Origin: Chloroflexota bacterium
GTDB taxonomy: Bacteria > Chloroflexota > Dehalococcoidia > Lucifugimonadales > Australimonadaceae
Assembly (NCBI GenBank): GCA_009838965.1
Contig: VXQP01000023.1
Location: 1 to 42,160 of the forward strand
Direction of reading: 5' to 3'
DNA: 42,160 bases
Position 1 is the stretch's first letter, and every line of letters begins with the position of its first letter. Both the position numbers and the translations under genes were made by a program. A model generated the notes under the pieces. That model was given only the letters and a program-made list of their open reading frames with translations. It was not told the DNA's origin and ran no database searches. Below are positions 4,483 to 21,396 of this stretch, in pieces.

Positions 4483-5268
4483 TCAATCGAGACGGTAGAA
4501 CGATGCGGCGGTGCCGCTCAGCACGTCGGCGAGCTGCTCATCAGTCATGGGACCCGCTGCATCGATCGTTGCCTGCACCACCTGCTCGTACGACGCAACC
4601 GACAGGTGGTTCGGCCAGTCGCTGCCGAACATCATGCGGCGGTAGCCGAAGAGCCGCACCATCGGCTCCACGAACAACCGCAGGTGGGCCGTGCTCCACG
4701 GCTCCGTGTCCAGTGTCACGAGGCCGCTCAGCTTGACCGAGACGTTGGCGCAGGGCGCGAGGTTGAGCATGTGGACGCCCCACGGCTCCCGCTCGCTCCG
4801 CGCGATGAACGGCGAACCGATGTGCGCCAGGGCGATGCGCAGGTCCGGGATGGCCTCTGCCAGATTGCGCACGGAGGGGACCTGGCGCGGTTCCACGATG
4901 ACGTCCAGGCTGAACCCGCGTTTCGCCGTCTCGCGAAGACCCGCCAGTACAGCGGGCTGCGTCAGCCAGTGGTTGTCTTCCTCACGGTATGCCGGGAGAC
5001 ACACCCCCCGTACCTTCTTGTTGCGCTCCAGTTGCTTGAGTATCTTCCCGATGTCCCGCGACGTAACGTCCACCCACAGGGAGGCAGCGGCTACGAGTTC
5101 GTCTTCGGCTGCAGCAGCAAGCGCTGCGTTCGTGGCGTCGTTGGAAGACTCCGGCTGCACGAGCACGGTGCGCTGCACGCCGGCGGCGGCGAGGAGCGCG
5201 GCGAGACCGCCGGCGCTGTCCGCGGTCGCAGGGAGGCGGTGGGCGTCTACGATGGGTGGGAGGTTCAT
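4483..5268 (-). CDS. Amidohydrolase-2-like TIM-barrel protein with altered metal site
   Basis: The 261-residue protein has the fold signature of small amidohydrolase-2 enzymes (lactone, aromatic-acid or dicarboxylate hydrolases and decarboxylases). It shows PIVDAH at the N-terminus, LRIALAHIGSPF near residue 155, VSVKLSGL and FGSDWPNH near the C-terminus. The usual first-strand metal motif HxH reads H-R-L here, so the second His is missing, while the later His and Asp remain. It may bind metal differently or be a decarboxylase-like or inactive relative. The ATG at 5268 was preferred because it starts just before the first beta strand; an in-frame ATG at 5301 adds 11 Pro-rich residues. No operon partner is tighter than the 144-base gap to the cyclophilin gene. 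Confidence 0.72.
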   Translation of the reverse strand: MNLPPIVDAHRLPATADSAGGLAALLAAAGVQRTVLVQPESSNDATNAALAAAAEDELVAAASLWVDVTSRDIGKILKQLERNKKVRGVCLPAYREEDNHWLTQPAVLAGLRETAKRGFSLDVIVEPRQVPSVRNLAEAIPDLRIALAHIGSPFIARSEREPWGVHMLNLAPCANVSVKLSGLVTLDTEPWSTAHLRLFVEPMVRLFGYRRMMFGSDWPNHLSVASYEQVVQATIDAAGPMTDEQLADVLSGTAASFYRLD

Positions 5269-5649
5269 GGCTCTATTCGGCGGGTCGGGCGCAGTGGGCA
5301 CGCGGTTTCCCCAATCCTAGCACGGGGGACGGCGCGGAAGCCTGTACGGCCCTGCTCAACGAGGTTCTCGTTCGGCGACGATCGTGCTGCTACCACTTAC
5401 ATGGTTCAACTTACCCGGCATAACCCCTGCCGGCGCCCTCCATCTATCCGGATTGTGAAGCCTGATTTTGGTACGAATACGTGCCGGAACGCGCTCCAAC
5501 AACCGGGCTCAACTCACCATGTGGCAGCTTACGAGGCCTTCAGACCTTGCTATCGAAACCGATACTGGACTTATCGGATTCGACACGTTATCCTGCCCGC
5601 ACAACGGGCAGCGATTCGACGCAGCTGCCGCATACAGGAGGTAAGTGGG
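5269..5649. other. 381-base intergenic region with leader hairpin
   Basis: No gene is visible. Base composition is clearly less GC-rich than the flanking genes. A 7-bp hairpin (CTGCCCG at 5593-5599, CGGGCAG at 5605-5611) lies 25 bases before the Shine-Dalgarno of the small gene at 5650 and may belong to its leader. I saw no convincing promoter pair. Confidence 0.4.
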
Positions 5650-5943
5650 ATGCCCACTTTCGACATCGTTTCCATAGGCGAAGCCCGCGCGAACAGCGCA
5701 ACGGGCAAGCGCGCGGCACTCTTGCAGGAATACATCGGCTACATCCAGCGTGTGGCCCCCGGCGAGGCGGGCAAGCTGGAAGCCGGAGAGGGCGAGACAA
5801 CACAGGCCATCCGGCGAAGGCTCAACGCGGCAGCCGAGGCGTTGGGCAAGAAACTGGACGTCCGCCGCTCCGCTACCACTGTCTATTTCTGGACGTCGGA
5901 CGGACGCCGCCGCGGCAGGCCTCGGAAGAACCCCGTCGCGTAG
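5650..5943 (+). CDS. Small basic protein with C-terminal AT-hook-like tail
   Basis: This 97-residue protein is not a family I recognise. Its start is well set: ATG at 5650 preceded by AGGAGGTAAGTGGG. The middle is helical and charged (GKRAALLQEYIGYIQRV, then ETTQAIRRRLNAAAEALGKKL). A possible strand follows (TTVYFWTSD), then the tail GRRRGRPRKNP. GRPRK is the core of an AT-hook, which binds the minor groove of AT-rich DNA. In a GC-rich genome this points to a nucleoid-associated or regulatory role, which is an inference. A stable hairpin follows the stop, so it is probably a single-gene transcript. The long low-GC upstream region may hold its control sites. Confidence 0.72.
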   Translation: MPTFDIVSIGEARANSATGKRAALLQEYIGYIQRVAPGEAGKLEAGEGETTQAIRRRLNAAAEALGKKLDVRRSATTVYFWTSDGRRRGRPRKNPVA

Positions 5944-5964
5944 CATCCTTTTTCCTGGCCATTT

Positions 5965-6011
5965 CACACGGCATCACGACCGCTCCGGAGAGCGGGTTGC
6001 GATGCCGTGTG
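5965..6011 (+). terminator. Branched hairpin terminator after the AT-hook-like gene
   Basis: An 11-bp outer stem (CACACGGCATC 5965-5975 with GATGCCGTGTG 6001-6011) encloses a second hairpin (CCGCT/AGCGG at 5980-5995). A U-rich stretch (TTGTTAACGTGTATTT) follows. It lies 22 bases after the stop and before the rpiB promoter region. Confidence 0.65.
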
Positions 6012-6151
6012 TTGTTAACGTGTATTTATCTCCCGACGGGGTGCGGTTTTGCTGGCCGCATGGCGACCGGTTTATGCGTCGGTAAGCCTTTGACGGCTGC
6101 AGGCGCACCCGTTCGGCCGTATGGACGTTAACCCCCCGCGGGCCGGACTGC

Positions 6152-6160
6152 TGGTACGAT
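6152..6160 (+). promoter_or_regulatory. Candidate extended -10 promoter for the pentose-phosphate operon
   Basis: TGGTACGAT has the TGn extension plus a near-consensus -10 (TACGAT at 6155-6160), with no clear -35. It would give a leader of about 50 bases before the GTG at 6217. Confidence 0.4.
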
Positions 6161-6216
6161 AGGGGTGCAGGCAGCGATGCCGCACGTCCAACAGACGGGA
6201 CCCGACAGGAGCCGCA

Positions 6217-6678
6217 GTGCGCCTAGCCATAGCAGCCGATCACGCAGGGTTCGCACTCAAGACCGACGTTGCCGCGATGCTCAGCGCATGGGGCCACGAC
6301 GTGCTCGACCTCGGTGCGCATGAGTTCGACCCGGACGACGACTACCCCGACTTCGCCGCGCTAGTCGCACGAGCCGTCGCCGGCGGAGACGCGGAGCGCG
6401 GCGTCATCGTCTGCGGCAGCGGGGTCGGCGCGAGCATCGCGGCCAACAAGGTGACCGGCGTCCGCGCGGCGATGTGCCACGACACGTACTCGGCGCACCA
6501 GGGAGTGGAGCACGACGACATGAATGTGCTCTGCATCGGTGGGCGCGTCATCGGACCGGAGACGGCTCGAGAGGTCATCGCAGCCTTCCTCGGAGCCTCG
6601 TTCACCGGCGAGGAGCGCCACGTCCGCAGGCTGGAGAAGGTGAAGGCGCTGGAGCGCGACGCTACAGCAAGCAAGTGA
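6217..6678 (+). CDS. rpiB: Ribose-5-phosphate isomerase B
   Basis: The 153-residue protein is RpiB/LacAB type. The N-terminus AIAADHAGFALK, DYPDFA and the catalytic Cys segment GVIVCGSGVGASIAANK are all present, followed by CHDTYSAHQGVEHDDMNVLCIG. It interconverts ribose 5-phosphate and ribulose 5-phosphate in the cytoplasm. The start is GTG at 6217 with CAGGAG about 6 bases upstream. It is the first gene of a four-gene run that continues with transaldolase, 6-phosphogluconate dehydrogenase and 6-phosphogluconolactonase, so its role is the pentose-phosphate pathway rather than allose use. Length and motifs are normal. Confidence 0.95.
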   Translation: MRLAIAADHAGFALKTDVAAMLSAWGHDVLDLGAHEFDPDDDYPDFAALVARAVAGGDAERGVIVCGSGVGASIAANKVTGVRAAMCHDTYSAHQGVEHDDMNVLCIGGRVIGPETAREVIAAFLGASFTGEERHVRRLEKVKALERDATASK

Positions 6679-6695
6679 GATCAGGAGGCAGCACC

Positions 6696-7802
6696 ATGGA
6701 GAACACGATCCGCAGGAACCTCGCGCTCGGACAGTCCACCTGGGTGGACTACATCAGCCGCAACATGCTGGTCAACGGCGAGTTGGAGCGGCTCGTGGAA
6801 GACGGAGTCACCGGTCTCACGTCCAACCCCACCATCTTCGAGAAGGCCATCTCCGGCAGCTCCGACTACGACGAGGCGCTCGCCGGGCTGTCGAACGAAG
6901 GGAAAACCCCGACGCAGATATTCGAGGCGCTCGCGGTCGAGGACATCCGTGCCGCAGCGCAGGCGCTCCGCCCCGTCTACGACGCCTGCGGCGGACGCGA
7001 CGGCTTCGTCTCGCTCGAGGTCGCCCCTACCCTCGCCTACGACACCGAAGGCACGGTACGCGACGCGCGTCGCCTCTGGGCAGCGGTCGGTGAGCCGAAC
7101 GTGATGATCAAGGTGCCGGGAACGCCTGAGGGACTTCCCGCCATCACGCAGCTCATCGGCGAGAGCATCAACGTCAACGTCACGCTCATCTTTTCGCTGG
7201 ACGCCTACCGGCGCGTGATGGACGCCTATGTCAGCGGCCTGCAGACGCTCGCGCAGAGCGGCGGGCCCCTCGGGCGCGTGGCGTCCGTGGCGTCGTTCTT
7301 CGTGAGCCGCGTGGACACGGCCGTCGACAAGGCGCTCGAAGAGAGCGGTGCCGATGCGTCGCTGCGGGGGAAGGCGGCGATAGCGAACGCGCGCGTCGCG
7401 TACGCGCTGTTCCAAGAGCGGTTCGCGCGGGACGACTTTGCAGCCCTCCGAGCGCAGGGCGCGCAGGTGCAGCGTCCGCTCTGGGCCAGCACGAGCACCA
7501 AGAACCCGGCCTACCCCGACACGCTCTATGTCGACAACCTCATCGGCCCGGACTCCGTGAACACGATGCCGCCCGACACGCTCCAGGCCACGCTGGACCA
7601 CGGCGTATCCGCGCTCACACTGGAGGGCACGGAGCAGGAGGCCAACGCCACGCTCGCCGCGCTGAAGGACGCAGGCGTGGACATGGACGCCGTTACGGAC
7701 AAGCTGCTCAGCGACGGAGTGGATGCGTTTGCGGGCTCATATCGCCAGTTGCTGGAGAGCATCGAGGCGAAGTGCGGCCTGTTGGCGCAGGCGCGCAGAT
7801 GA
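6696..7802 (+). CDS. tal: Transaldolase
   Basis: This 368-residue protein is of the longer transaldolase type found in Actinobacteria, Cyanobacteria and Chloroflexota. Visible landmarks are TSNPTIFEKAISGSSDYDEAL near residue 45, VSLEVAPTLAYDTEGT, and the Schiff-base Lys in NVMIKVPGTPEGLPAI (about residue 138). NVTLIFSLDAYRRVMDAY and RPLWASTSTKNPAYPDTLYV follow. It moves a dihydroxyacetone unit between sedoheptulose 7-phosphate and glyceraldehyde 3-phosphate. AGGAGG lies 7 bases before the ATG, and the gene starts 17 bases after rpiB, so the two are in one operon. Confidence 0.95.
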   Translation: MENTIRRNLALGQSTWVDYISRNMLVNGELERLVEDGVTGLTSNPTIFEKAISGSSDYDEALAGLSNEGKTPTQIFEALAVEDIRAAAQALRPVYDACGGRDGFVSLEVAPTLAYDTEGTVRDARRLWAAVGEPNVMIKVPGTPEGLPAITQLIGESINVNVTLIFSLDAYRRVMDAYVSGLQTLAQSGGPLGRVASVASFFVSRVDTAVDKALEESGADASLRGKAAIANARVAYALFQERFARDDFAALRAQGAQVQRPLWASTSTKNPAYPDTLYVDNLIGPDSVNTMPPDTLQATLDHGVSALTLEGTEQEANATLAALKDAGVDMDAVTDKLLSDGVDAFAGSYRQLLESIEAKCGLLAQARR

Positions 7803-16070: not shown

Positions 16071-17141
16071 ATGGGAAAGCACGAGATAGCGGTCATACGC
16101 GGAGACGGCATTGGGCCGGAGGTCGTCGAGGAAGGCATCAAGATGCTGAACGCCGCGCAACGCCGGTTCGGCGTCGAGTTCACGTACACCGAGTTCCCGT
16201 GGGGCTCCGACTACTACTTCGAGCACGGCAGGATGATGGACGCGAACGGGCTGGACATGCTGCGCGGGTTCGACGCCGTCTTCTTCGGCGCAGTCGGACA
16301 CCCGGACATCCAGGACCACGTCACGCTGAACGGCCTGCTGCTGCCGATGCGGCGCGGCTTCGACCAGTACGTCTGCCAGCGACCCAGCATCCTGCTGCCC
16401 GGCGTCACGTCGCCGCTGCGGGAGATGGAAAGCGGCGACATCGACATGATCGTCATCCGTGAGAATACGGAGGGCGAGTACGCCAACGTCGGCGGCTTCC
16501 AGTACAAGGGCTTCCCGGAGGAGGTTGCAGTGCAGACGTCCGTGTTTACGCGTCGCGGGATCGAGCGCGTCGTGCGCTACTCGTTCGAGCTGGCGCGCTC
16601 ACGCAACAAGCAGCGGCGCGTCGCCTCCATCACCAAGTCGAACGCGCAGGGCTACGGCATGGTGCTCTGGGACGAGGTGTTCGATCAGGTCGCGGCCGAG
16701 TACCCGGACATCGAGACGGAGTCGCTCCTCGTGGACGCCGCGTGCATGAACTTCATCCGGCGCCCGCAGTCGTTCGACGTCGTGGTCGCGAGCAACCTCT
16801 TCGGCGACGTGCTCACGGACATCGGCGCCATCATCACGGGCAGCATGGGCCTCGCGCCGAGCGGGAACATCAACCCGGAGCGCGCGTTCCCATCCGTCTT
16901 CGAGCCGGTGCACGGCAGCGCCCCCGACATCGCCGGCAAGGGTATCGCGAACCCGATGGCGACCGTCTTCTCCGGCGCGATGATGCTGCGCCACCTCGGC
17001 GAGACCGAGGCCGCGGACGCGGTCGACGCTGCCGTCGAGAGCGTGCTGCGCGACGGCGAAACGATGCCCGTGGACCTCGGCGGCTCAGCCTCGACCCAGG
17101 CCATCGGCGACGCCATCGTCGACGCCCTCGAACGCGCCTAG
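16071..17141 (+). CDS. Tartrate/D-malate-type beta-decarboxylating dehydrogenase
   Basis: The 356-residue protein belongs to the isocitrate/isopropylmalate dehydrogenase family. Landmarks are IAVIRGDGIGPEVV, DHVTLNGLLLPMRRGFDQYVCQRP, VIRENTEGEYANVGG, the catalytic Lys in ITKSNAQGYGMVLWDEVF, the metal-site Asp stretch ASNLFGDVLTDIGA and FEPVHGSAPDIAGKG. The loop and TKSNA form match tartrate dehydrogenase/decarboxylase and D-malate dehydrogenase rather than LeuB. It should oxidise and decarboxylate a 2-hydroxy dicarboxylate with NAD and Mg/Mn. The final 47 bases (17088-17134) are repeated in decayed form at 18716-18762 beside a group II intron domain V. Confidence 0.87.
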   Translation: MGKHEIAVIRGDGIGPEVVEEGIKMLNAAQRRFGVEFTYTEFPWGSDYYFEHGRMMDANGLDMLRGFDAVFFGAVGHPDIQDHVTLNGLLLPMRRGFDQYVCQRPSILLPGVTSPLREMESGDIDMIVIRENTEGEYANVGGFQYKGFPEEVAVQTSVFTRRGIERVVRYSFELARSRNKQRRVASITKSNAQGYGMVLWDEVFDQVAAEYPDIETESLLVDAACMNFIRRPQSFDVVVASNLFGDVLTDIGAIITGSMGLAPSGNINPERAFPSVFEPVHGSAPDIAGKGIANPMATVFSGAMMLRHLGETEAADAVDAAVESVLRDGETMPVDLGGSASTQAIGDAIVDALERA

Positions 17142-17454
17142 CCAGTACCCGTCATTCCTGCGCAGGCGGGAACCCAGAAGTGCCCCATAGGGCACACGGG
17201 GCGCGGTGTGGGAGTTGTCATGCCGAGCAAGCGCAGCGGAGTCGAGGTATCTCTCACGGGCGGAGTGCAACTCCGTCGTTCCTGCGCAGGCAGGAACCTC
17301 GCCTGGCCCACTTCTCCCTCTGGGAGAGGTCGACGCGCTTGCGCTGCGGGTGAGGGTGAACCAGGCTGGCCGGGGCCCCATTGACGCAGCAACCGCGCTG
17401 TCCATAGCCTGCTTACCCGAGCCACCCTCTCCTCGGAGAACCGAAACGAGCCGC
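17142..17454. repeat. Composite intergenic repeat (A, B, A, C) before the HAD gene
   Basis: This gap holds palindrome A (GTTCCTGC-GCAG-GCAGGAAC type) at 17151-17175 and 17274-17298. A short hairpin GTGCCC/GGGCAC lies at 17180-17195, element B (TGTCATgCCGAGC...GTATCTCTC) at 17216-17262 and element C (CTCCC/GGGAG hairpin plus GGGTGAGGGTGAACC) at 17310-17362. No gene is seen. Confidence 0.75.
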
Positions 17455-18153
17455 ATGCGAGATTCCGCCTCCTCCGCCCTTGAAGGGTCCATCGACGCCG
17501 TCGTCTTCGATTACGACGACACGCTTGTAGACACCTTCCGCGCCCGCGTCGAGGCGATGCGCCTGACGTTCGCAGAGGTAGGGTTGCTTTACGACCCGAC
17601 AGAGTTCGTCGAGACGACGCGCGGCTCCCCATTCCAACGAGCCTTCGATGAGATAAGCGACGCTCCGGGCTGGAAGCCGGACCTTATGGACGTCTATCGC
17701 CGTCACTACTGGAGCAAGGAACCCGGCTTCATCTACCTCTTCGATGGTGTGCGTGAGATGCTCGACGCCTTGAAACAGCGTGGCATGCCCATGGGGATGC
17801 TCACCTCGAAAGCGCACGACATCCTGATCGAGGGTCGGCGCGCCGGCGCGGTGGTCGAGGCAGAGGAACTTGGTATCGACGGCCACTTCCCGCATATCGT
17901 CGGCTTCGAGGACGTTGCTCACCACAAGCCCCATCCCGAAGGGCTGGAACGCCTGATGGCCCGCTTGGGCGCAACCCCGGACCGGACCCTCGTGGTAGGC
18001 GACAGCTGGTCGGACGTTGAGGTCGCGAAGAACGGCGGCTGCTGGAGTTGCCTCGCAACGTGGGGCCTCGACGACCCCACCGAGCAGACCTCCCGCGCCA
18101 CCCCCGACTTCATAGTCGAAACCCCGGCGCAACTGCTCAGCCTGCTCGCCTGA
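17455..18153 (+). CDS. HAD-superfamily hydrolase, phosphoglycolate phosphatase-like
   Basis: The 232-residue protein has all four HAD motifs. They are the nucleophile FDYDDTLVDT, the Thr/Ser motif MLTSKAHD, the Lys in VAHHKPHPEG and the acidic VGDSWSDVEVAKNGG. The helical cap after motif I is type C1, as in phosphoglycolate and pyrophosphate phosphatases. It dephosphorylates a small cytoplasmic metabolite that cannot be named. The ATG at 17455 was chosen because upstream in-frame sequence is repeat DNA. It is a single gene between a repeat block and the low-GC islet. Confidence 0.87.
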   Translation: MRDSASSALEGSIDAVVFDYDDTLVDTFRARVEAMRLTFAEVGLLYDPTEFVETTRGSPFQRAFDEISDAPGWKPDLMDVYRRHYWSKEPGFIYLFDGVREMLDALKQRGMPMGMLTSKAHDILIEGRRAGAVVEAEELGIDGHFPHIVGFEDVAHHKPHPEGLERLMARLGATPDRTLVVGDSWSDVEVAKNGGCWSCLATWGLDDPTEQTSRATPDFIVETPAQLLSLLA

Positions 18154-18673
18154 GCCACCTTCTTGTTCCCCGCAGGTGAGAACATCCCGACCCTCCAGGT
18201 CTTCGCCCTGATAGTCGTCGCGACATCAGGCTGTACATTGCCAACCGAAGCACCTCCTAGCGGCACGGTGGTATGATTCCCCGAATCTACGGACACGGCA
18301 GAGATCCAACGATGTGTTTCATGACTGGTCGAACCAAACACTATAAGTGGGGCAACATGGGGCATGGGCATTGGGGATGGATCGAGACCAAGCCGCCTCG
18401 CCGTCGACGCTCTCGGCGTTCAAAGCACCGCTATCGTCGGATGATTGCGCTACTGCCTACGCTCCCCTCCCTACTCCGCCCTGCCTCAGTGTCTGCCCAA
18501 ACAAAGCCGTGAGGTATGCTTTCGCACTCACTCCGCGCCAATGGGGCACGGAGGCCACGATGCGTTGTACCCACTATCAGACCAGAACACTTACCCCTCT
18601 AGGTTGTGATGCGTCTCGGTAGGGCACTGACACTCCCGGCATCTACCCAACACTACCGACACAAGACACTGGA
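18154..18673 (+). other. Low-GC, non-coding stretch upstream of the domain V; possible intron remnant
   Basis: Base composition falls well below that of the flanking genes. The first 120 bases carry no convincing ORF. A run from 18513 to 18673 also lacks coding potential in any frame. Because a group II domain V begins at 18674, part of this stretch may be the remaining intron domains I-IV, or what is left after loss of the reverse-transcriptase gene. I could not identify a GUGYG-type 5' end or a maturase. Confidence 0.35.
18273..18512 (+). CDS. Possible small basic protein of unknown function
   Basis: A 79-residue open frame starting MIPRIYGHGRDPTMCF contains an Arg/His/Lys-rich block (HGHWGWIETKPPRRRRSRR). 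I recognise no family. The Shine-Dalgarno is weak, and it lies inside low-GC sequence that may belong to a degenerate intron, so it may be chance. The aromatic and basic bias is the only point in favour. Confidence 0.22.
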   Translation: MIPRIYGHGRDPTMCFMTGRTKHYKWGNMGHGHWGWIETKPPRRRRSRRSKHRYRRMIALLPTLPSLLRPASVSAQTKP

Positions 18674-18707
18674 GAGCCGGATGCGGTGAAAACCGCACGT
18701 CCGGTTC
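18674..18707 (+). ncRNA. Group II intron domain V
   Basis: These 34 bases match the canonical domain V exactly in architecture. The lower helix GAGCCGGA pairs with TCCGGTTC and contains the catalytic AGC triad at its second to fourth bases. A two-base CG bulge sits on the 3' side. The upper helix GCGGT/ACCGC is capped by a GAAA tetraloop. Domain V is the active-site RNA of group II self-splicing introns. No reverse transcriptase/maturase gene and no obvious domain VI with a bulged A are seen; sequence homologous to an exon begins 9 bases later. It is therefore probably a degraded or truncated intron. Confidence 0.9.
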
Positions 18708-18715
18708 GGAGGAGG

Positions 18716-18762
18716 GCCTCAACGCAGGCCATCGGCGACGCCATCATCAGCACCCTAGAGCG
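18716..18762 (+). pseudogene. Decayed duplicate of the 3' end of the tartrate-type dehydrogenase gene
   Basis: These 47 bases match 17088-17134 at 39 positions by eye. Read in frame they give ASTQAIGDAIISTLERP against ASTQAIGDAIVDALERA in the intact gene. The match starts just after the domain V, as expected if an intron once sat in the 3' end of a second dehydrogenase gene whose upstream part is gone. The frame continues without the expected stop, so it is not functional. Confidence 0.75.
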
Positions 18763-18784
18763 GCCTGGTACCGTGTGTCAGCCC

Positions 18785-20425
18785 CTACCCGTCGACATGG
18801 TTCGTGGATGTCGCAGCAAGGTAGGGAGATTCTTTGGGTGGGTCGATGAGCCAGAAGAGCGATTGCTTCGACAACGGAGTCGGTTCCTGCATGTGGTCCG
18901 GTCTCCCCCAGAGGAGGACAGTGTAGACGCCGGGGCCATGTTCTTTAAGGACTGTGGTGAGGTCTGCTCTTATATCGAAAGCACTGCTGGCAATGTCCAT
19001 ACGGTCGGCGACTATCCGTCTTTTCTGTGTAATGATTGTTTGGGCGGATTCGCTGGCAGCTTTGGCGGATGCCCAGGCGTTGTGCGCTTGCTCAGGGCTG
19101 CTTGGAGCGGGTCGGTCCGCCGGGGTCTGGTACGGGTCTACGCATCTCACTACTTGAGAGTCAGTTCTGACATCCGGGGTTGAGAATGACCAGCCTGGAA
19201 GTAATGGCTCCACCACGTAACCGACTGAGACGGGGTTACAAAGGGAGTAGGTGTATGCGAGTTGCCCTCGGGTCAGGCGTGTTGGCGGTACATCGTAGGC
19301 AATCGAGACATTAACGGTATCCACGATATTGAGTGTGGCGCCCGACACTTCGCCTTGGAGTGTGAGCACGCCCTCCGAGTTTATGGTGGGTTTGGTTGTG
19401 TAGCTGACATAGTCAGACGAAAAGTGTTGGACCAGCATGACATTGAACTGGTCGTGGGCTATGCCGACATTCAGGATGGTGTGCGCCGGGTCCAGCAGGT
19501 TGCGGCGGTGTCCTGGGCTGGCCATCCATCCTTTGATGGCATTACCTATCTCGCGATGCATATCGTCGATGGGTCTGTAGCCTTGGTTGGATGCAATGCA
19601 GTAGTCAGAGCCTCGGCCGTTCTCGCCGTCGGCTCCGGTACCGCCAGACAAAGTGTATCGATGGTTCGGTTTGAGTCCCCACTGGTCCCAGTGGCTGCTG
19701 TAGCATCCTTGAAGCGCCGCTTCAGCGTGGAGTTGAGCAGCTCCGTTGGAGCCAAGCCGGACTGGCGGTACGCCAGCCCCAGCCCTTTGCTCGTTGGTCA
19801 GTTGAACCATAAGCTCCTTGAGCGCAAGGTGACGCTGGACGGGATCTGAGAACTGTTCACGTTCGTCCTCGGTGTCGTGGAACCCGGTAGTCGTTACCTC
19901 AATATCCCCTGACCGAGCTTCAATATCTGCCTCTGGTGTTGCCTCGGTGGAGGTTCGAGCAGCAGTACCATCGATATCCCCGGTCTGAGCCTCAGGATTT
20001 GCCTCTGACGCTTCCTCGGCGATGGTCCGAATCGTGTCTGCACCGAGGAAGTCGGCGTTCTCTTCTAGCGCGAAGTAAGCGGCTATGACTGCGGCCGCAG
20101 CCACGACAATGACGACAGCCCAGCAGAGCCCATGCGACTGCCTGCGGCTACCCCGGTTTCGGCCCCGTGCCGAACGGCTACCCGGTTGAGCACGCAGGGT
20201 GCCTCTTCGTTCCATTCGTGGTATGTCTTCGGCGAAGACAGACCATCTTCCATCGTCTCCCGGAGGGAGGATGTAATCCCGAACGGTTGGGGTTCTGAAC
20301 ACCCCATTGCAACTACGGCATCTCCACAACAGATTCTGATGCCTCTGTTGCCTGATGCGAATCCTATGACTTCCACACAGCGGGCAAACTCCAAGGCGTT
20401 CGTAGTGTTCACCTCCGTTCGGCAT
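18785..20425 (-). CDS. Membrane-anchored CAP-domain protein with N-terminal zinc ribbon
   Basis: The 546-residue protein has a Cys4 zinc ribbon (Cys14, 17, 36, 39: CPLC...CRSC). A basic stretch is followed by one transmembrane segment at about 100-120 and an acidic linker with an imperfect repeat (EANPEAQTGDID, EADIEARSGDIE). A CAP/SCP-PR1 domain spans about 205-345, with HWDQWG, GENGRG, IKGWMASPGHRRNLLDP and VQHFSSDY. A unique domain of about 200 residues follows. The ribbon should be cytoplasmic and the CAP domain outside. GGAG lies 6 bases before the ATG. Its base composition is far lower in GC than neighbours (for example 27 of 60 bases at 19381-19440), suggesting transfer. The function of bacterial CAP domains is mostly unknown. 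Confidence 0.82.
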   Translation of the reverse strand: MPNGGEHYERLGVCPLCGSHRIRIRQQRHQNLLWRCRSCNGVFRTPTVRDYILPPGDDGRWSVFAEDIPRMERRGTLRAQPGSRSARGRNRGSRRQSHGLCWAVVIVVAAAAVIAAYFALEENADFLGADTIRTIAEEASEANPEAQTGDIDGTAARTSTEATPEADIEARSGDIEVTTTGFHDTEDEREQFSDPVQRHLALKELMVQLTNEQRAGAGVPPVRLGSNGAAQLHAEAALQGCYSSHWDQWGLKPNHRYTLSGGTGADGENGRGSDYCIASNQGYRPIDDMHREIGNAIKGWMASPGHRRNLLDPAHTILNVGIAHDQFNVMLVQHFSSDYVSYTTKPTINSEGVLTLQGEVSGATLNIVDTVNVSIAYDVPPTRLTRGQLAYTYSLCNPVSVGYVVEPLLPGWSFSTPDVRTDSQVVRCVDPYQTPADRPAPSSPEQAHNAWASAKAASESAQTIITQKRRIVADRMDIASSAFDIRADLTTVLKEHGPGVYTVLLWGRPDHMQEPTPLSKQSLFWLIDPPKESPYLAATSTNHVDG

Positions 20426-20523
20426 GGGGCTCCTTCAGCAGCACTGACAAGAGGGCATAAGAGACATCGCGGGAACGCCCCTTTACAGGACGGTGACCTG
20501 TGGCAAGCGATCGCCTGCCCCGC

Positions 20524-21267: not shown

Positions 21268-21307
21268 ATCCGTTCCTCCTTCTCTCTACCGCCGTTCCTG
21301 CCCCGCT

Positions 21308-21396
21308 CCGTCGTTCCTGCGAAGGCAGGAACCTCGCCTGCTACCTTCTCCCTCTGGGAGAGGTCGCCGCGCGATAGCGTGGCGGGAGAGGGTGTC
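21308..21396. repeat. Composite repeat A + C between aldolase and DUF427 genes
   Basis: Element A lies at 21310-21333 and element C at 21342-21395. The C arm is GCCGCGCGATAGCGTGGC, which pairs with itself. It sits 5' of the aldolase start and just after the DUF427 stop on the minus strand. Confidence 0.75.

Follow-up and report, generated by a model that had tools for sequence, protein, structure and literature searches.

Most group II intron copies in bacteria are truncated or inactive (PMC4424553), and relics of these introns are common. Cases in which fragmentation removed the 3′ terminus have been described (PMC4496777), and 111 fragments, representing 55 distinct copies, have been counted in 90 Enterobacteriales genomes (PMC3522654). 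Homology-facilitated illegitimate recombination makes its joins at 3–10 bp, according to the passage of PMC6382021 that cites de Vries and Wackernagel 2002. The locus described here very probably holds a dead scrap of a group II intron, truncated at both ends, that illegitimate, microhomology-type recombination joined to a decayed copy of the 3′ end of a dehydrogenase gene. The observations behind this reading are a domain V from which domain VI and all recognisable sequence upstream of about 18650 are missing, a sharp junction at a shared GCC, and a low-GC island that the sister genomes do not have at this locus. Like the fragmented introns of Enterobacteriales and Sinorhizobium (PMC3522654, PMC4496777), the scrap is a single truncated remnant in a genome with no active copy; unlike them, it has lost both ends and is flanked by a gene-tail pseudogene. 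The duplication of a gene tail around putatively foreign DNA and the three-base overlap at the illegitimate end resemble the recombination products covered in that passage of PMC6382021. In contrast to those products, the present case is deduced from sequence alone.

The window, that is, the whole stretch of DNA analysed here, is an entire contig (C88; 42,160 bases) of a 3.0-Mb genome (G000) assembled in 106 contigs, the nearest named relatives of which are Dehalococcoidia/SAR202-type Chloroflexota metagenome assemblies. The features of the locus are listed in Table 1. The protein encoded by the intact dehydrogenase gene shares 91–97% amino acid identity with those of sister species. The gene order in the window is dehydrogenase–HAD–island–aldolase, and the corresponding orders in the sisters are dehydrogenase–aldolase (G002), dehydrogenase–PIN gene–aldolase (G001), and dehydrogenase–HAD–PIN gene–aldolase (G004); the PIN genes of G001 and G004 were called from DNA similarity, as judged visually, to their counterpart in the sister G003, the one on which the family search was run. 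At this locus the HAD gene is common to the window and G004 and is absent from G001 and G002. The alignment with the G004 locus (L040) runs up to window position 18180, where the island begins. The GC profile gives about 55–62% GC for the island vs 65–70% in its flanks, and none of four sister genomes has the island at the syntenic locus. It contains the intron scrap, the dehydrogenase tail remnant, and the CAP-domain gene, whose nearest relative in an order-wide search is 58% identical and comes from another family of the order; in the loci fetched, relatives of the CAP gene do not adjoin a dehydrogenase.

Table 1. Coordinates of the features at the locus (window positions)
Feature	Position	Strand	Basis
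Intact isocitrate/isopropylmalate-dehydrogenase-family gene (Iso_dh)	16071..17141 (open frame from 15978)	+	Pfam PF00180, E 1.8e-98
HAD-family hydrolase gene	17461..18153 (start approximate; open frame from 17206)	+	Pfam HAD_2, E 3.2e-31
Lower-GC island	18180..20506 (approx.)		Synteny breaks and GC profile
Fragment of a group II intron, from the end of domain IV/linker through domain V into the first bases of domain VI	18650..18718 (~69 bases)	+	Similarity to relatives
Domain V	18674..18707	+	RF00029 match and fold
Junction GCC, common to domain VI start and dehydrogenase tail (microhomology)	18716..18718	+	Overlap of two BLAST boundaries
Decayed copy of the 3′-terminal ~48 bases of the dehydrogenase gene, which has lost its stop codon	18716..18763	+	Match to 17088 region and to G004
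CAP-domain protein gene	18788..20425	-	Pfam CAP, E 2e-8

Several other elements of the region were noted. An open reading frame running through domain V and the tail (18686–19183) has no family and is overlapped by the CAP gene of the opposite strand; it was treated as spurious. A small frame on the plus strand (18312–18512) encodes a basic, Arg/Lys-rich peptide of 66 amino acids, which belongs to no Pfam family and has in relatives only weak matches of low complexity, none of them convincing. Interspersed repeats around CGTCATTCCTGCGCAGGCGGGAA and TTCTCCCTCTGGGAGAGG occupy 17148–17360 and 21306–21396; they are intergenic here and occur again in sister loci. A sub-threshold match to the Rfam family whalefall-1 covers 17308–17357.

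The preliminary description had taken a 34-base element to be group II domain V, and the covariance-model search it proposed bore this out. The model RF00029 matched 18672–18744 on the plus strand with 55.5 bits (gathering score, 40; E 2.3e-8), the single match in the entire 3.0-Mb genome. The element is a textbook 34-mer with the features by which domain V is recognised, namely the AGC triad (18675–18677), a GNRA-type loop (GAAA, 18688–18691), and a two-base bulge (CG, 18698–18699), and it adopts the canonical fold with a z score of −6.1 vs shuffled sequences. It is one base off the commonest version among relatives, GTGAAAGCC being replaced with GTGAAAACC, which turns a U.G pair into U-A. 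Compared with the RF00029 introns of the HNH-bearing bacterial type in the same order (L033 and L035), all the catalytic features of domain V are kept. The domain V region is 96% identical to the same-genus copies over 52 bases, and the linker on its 5′ side is the same as in two relatives, G054 and G060. Unlike complete RF00029 introns, the scrap has no detected domains I–III, maturase, or 3′ splice site, and domain VI is lost after its first bases.

The boundaries of the intron similarity were located by comparison with these and other relatives. The fragment is 90, 87, and 82% identical to the copies of G060, G054, and G076, respectively, with which the similarity begins at 18650; the three copies of G001 are 90–96% identical from about 18667. 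The right edge lies at 18718 in BLAST comparisons with G054, G021, G001, G076, and G060, and at 18712 vs a diverged relic of G004 (L036) and a truncated second copy of G060. Every comparison with group II introns of the same order that crosses the junction places the end of the similarity at 18718, 11 bases past domain V and within the first strand of domain VI. Between 18150 and 18650, no above-chance similarity to the DNA upstream of the introns of five relatives was found, and this comparison revealed neither domains I–III nor a GUGYG 5′ end. No group II maturase (PF01348) was detected in the genome, whereas the sister G001 has one together with its three RF00029 copies. The fragment has thus lost both ends, and homology to complete introns that ends at non-functional boundaries, the mark of a relic, is confined to 18650–18718.

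The state of domain VI was assessed with a lineage covariance model built from complete relatives of the same order. A domain VI of ~62 bases, GGAGGGGGGCCGACGGAAAAG...CTCGCCGGCGGCCTACCCTAC, comes after domain V in these relatives and ends with GGCCTACCCTAC or a close variant; the window keeps no more than its first bases. The complete copies scored 112–115 bits and the window 45–46 bits, the latter from domain V and local ends only. The RF00029 alignment nominally covers domain VI, with a posterior confidence down to 6–7 of 10 in part. Neither the lineage model nor the alignments located a domain VI with a bulged adenosine and an AY 3′ end, and nothing next to the scrap points to a 3′ splice site. 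Broken copies also occur elsewhere in the order: two further ones in G060, broken inside domain VI (L052 and L062), and the diverged one in G004.

Some of the relatives' introns have features of their own. The copies of G054 and G060, which belong to two families, lie on the plus strand at L031 3724–4746 and L037 1–905 and agree at 81% of positions over 1.1 kb. Of the reverse transcriptase, no more than the C-terminal HNH-like part was found in them, and between this part and domain V lies a lipoprotein-like frame of ~158 amino acids, like a domain IV cargo gene. In L035 (5276–7535, plus strand), the intron reverse transcriptase is intact and has an HNH domain; a membrane-protein-like frame of 124 amino acids comes next, and then domain V.

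The dehydrogenase-like sequence described on the 3′ side of domain V also withstood examination. It matches the intact gene at 17088 in 39 of 47 positions, ungapped and in frame, and reads ASTQAIGDAIISTLERP where the dehydrogenase reads ASTQAIGDAIVDALERA. Among 300 random segments of the window compared with the dehydrogenase end, the best reached at most 30 of 47, and the match had an E value of 9e-7 in a whole-genome blastn search. The remnant is 86.5% identical to G004 over 52 bases and 74–84% identical to the genes of the genus. In most comparisons its divergence exceeds that between the gene tails, and so it may be older than the arrival of the intron. Two further matches were discarded: a 93% match of 27 bases of the tail in contig C52, considered as a second paralogue, sits in a ketosynthase-like frame and was attributed to chance, and an exact match of 21 bases in G054 (L031 6472) lies within an unrelated gene.

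The two similarities meet in a three-base overlap, the dehydrogenase similarity beginning at 18715–18716. An overlap of this size is weak proof of microhomology joining. The junction is that of the assembled sequence. When the exact junction pattern was sought in a collection of genomes from 84,980 species and in viral contigs, no second example came up. The most likely course of events is that foreign DNA entered beside the dehydrogenase through one homologous crossover inside the gene, which would have supplied the present tail of the intact gene and carried the cargo in. The other end would have been joined through short homology to the old tail, which stayed as the remnant, so that the resulting order would be new tail, cargo, scrap, and old tail. 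Within the intact gene, a change from G002-like to G004-like sequence reaches only weak significance (permutation p = 0.05), and this recombination signal gives only slight help to the proposed history. The same trace would be expected of a tandem duplication with a later deletion.

The sister G003 shows a tail duplication of its own (L039). Its dehydrogenase gene ends at 4533, and a second tail of 124 bases lies at 6817–6940, beyond which the flank is the same as in G001. The insert (4534–6940; 2.3 kb), situated between duplicates of the last 124 dehydrogenase bases, carries a lipoprotein-like frame with no family assignment, followed by a PIN/ribbon-helix-helix toxin–antitoxin pair. The tail of the intact gene is the divergent one (82–84% identical to the sisters in the last ~115 bases); the remnant is nearer to the genus (86–88%), and remnant and flank match the sister arrangement. 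The repeat lengths (48 bases in the window vs 124 in G003) and the cut points differ, and the duplication in G003 is an independent one. The 3′ end of the dehydrogenase gene might be a recurrent point of entry for foreign DNA in the genus, at which a new tail is gained and the old one left, possibly through an unrecognised recombinase, with the scrap marking just one such event; we consider this unlikely. It is also unlikely that integrative elements bearing a replacement gene tail use the 3′ end as their attachment site, the remnant being a putative attR. The gene icd is the attachment site for e14 and phage 21, and the order of new tail, cargo, and old tail in two species would fit such a scheme. 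Integration of the icd/e14 type, however, involves a site-specific recombinase and a fixed crossover core, and neither was found here: no recombinase was recognised among the frames of the window insert (HAD, unassigned, and CAP) or of the G003 insert (unassigned and PIN/RHH). Together with the different cut points, this argues against a fixed attachment site.

The preliminary description had proposed a group II intron seated in the 3′ end of a second dehydrogenase gene, with most of both deleted afterwards. Its picture of a deletion-scarred relic, with a genuine domain V beside a decayed dehydrogenase 3′ end, holds; the seating of the intron in a second dehydrogenase is not supported, and we regard that arrangement as improbable. 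Domain V does lie directly 5′ of the in-frame tail on the same strand. An intron–exon joint, however, would need domain VI in full together with a 3′ splice site, and neither is present between domain V and the tail; the intron similarity ends at 18718 and the tail begins at 18716, the two sharing the GCC. The present adjacency is thus better read as a later junction than as an insertion site. In the aligned sister genomes, the dehydrogenase has no intron and no second full copy. In addition, G003 duplicated its dehydrogenase tail independently with no intron, which indicates that such a duplication need not involve one.

A dehydrogenase fragment might also have been inserted within domain VI, whose 3′ strand would then survive at 18784–18793 (CCTACCCGTC), and the lineage model with default filters did place its last positions there. 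The resemblance to domain VI amounts to a 7-mer (p = 0.37 vs shuffles) and was rejected as no better than chance; the same bases fit the dehydrogenase 3′ flank better (p = 0.03), the model with its filters off prefers a different end, and no relative with the same insert plus a clear domain VI 3′ strand was found, all of which makes this explanation very unlikely. That the intron has a minimal domain VI, formed by the hairpin GGCCT-CAACGC-AGGCC as had been suggested, or lacks the domain altogether, and is possibly active, is hardly credible: the hairpin does fold and RF00029 nominally covers domain VI, but dehydrogenase codons (GCCT...AGGCC) supply its strands, it lacks the bulged-A YA-CCC-YAC ending, a long domain VI is present in every complete relative aligned, truncated copies are known in the order, domains I–III were not detected against the upstream DNA of the five relatives, and the genome has no maturase.

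We return to the reading of a truncated scrap joined to an old gene tail, for which neither splicing nor any other function is expected. The element is ordinary genomic debris, neither a working intron nor a new intron type. The case illustrates that a strong match to a whole domain V–VI covariance model can stem from a fragment in which host gene sequence stands in as "domain VI". One more dead group II intron is thereby recorded in a Chloroflexota lineage. Beyond this, the one finding of broader bearing is that two sister species have each duplicated the same gene tail.
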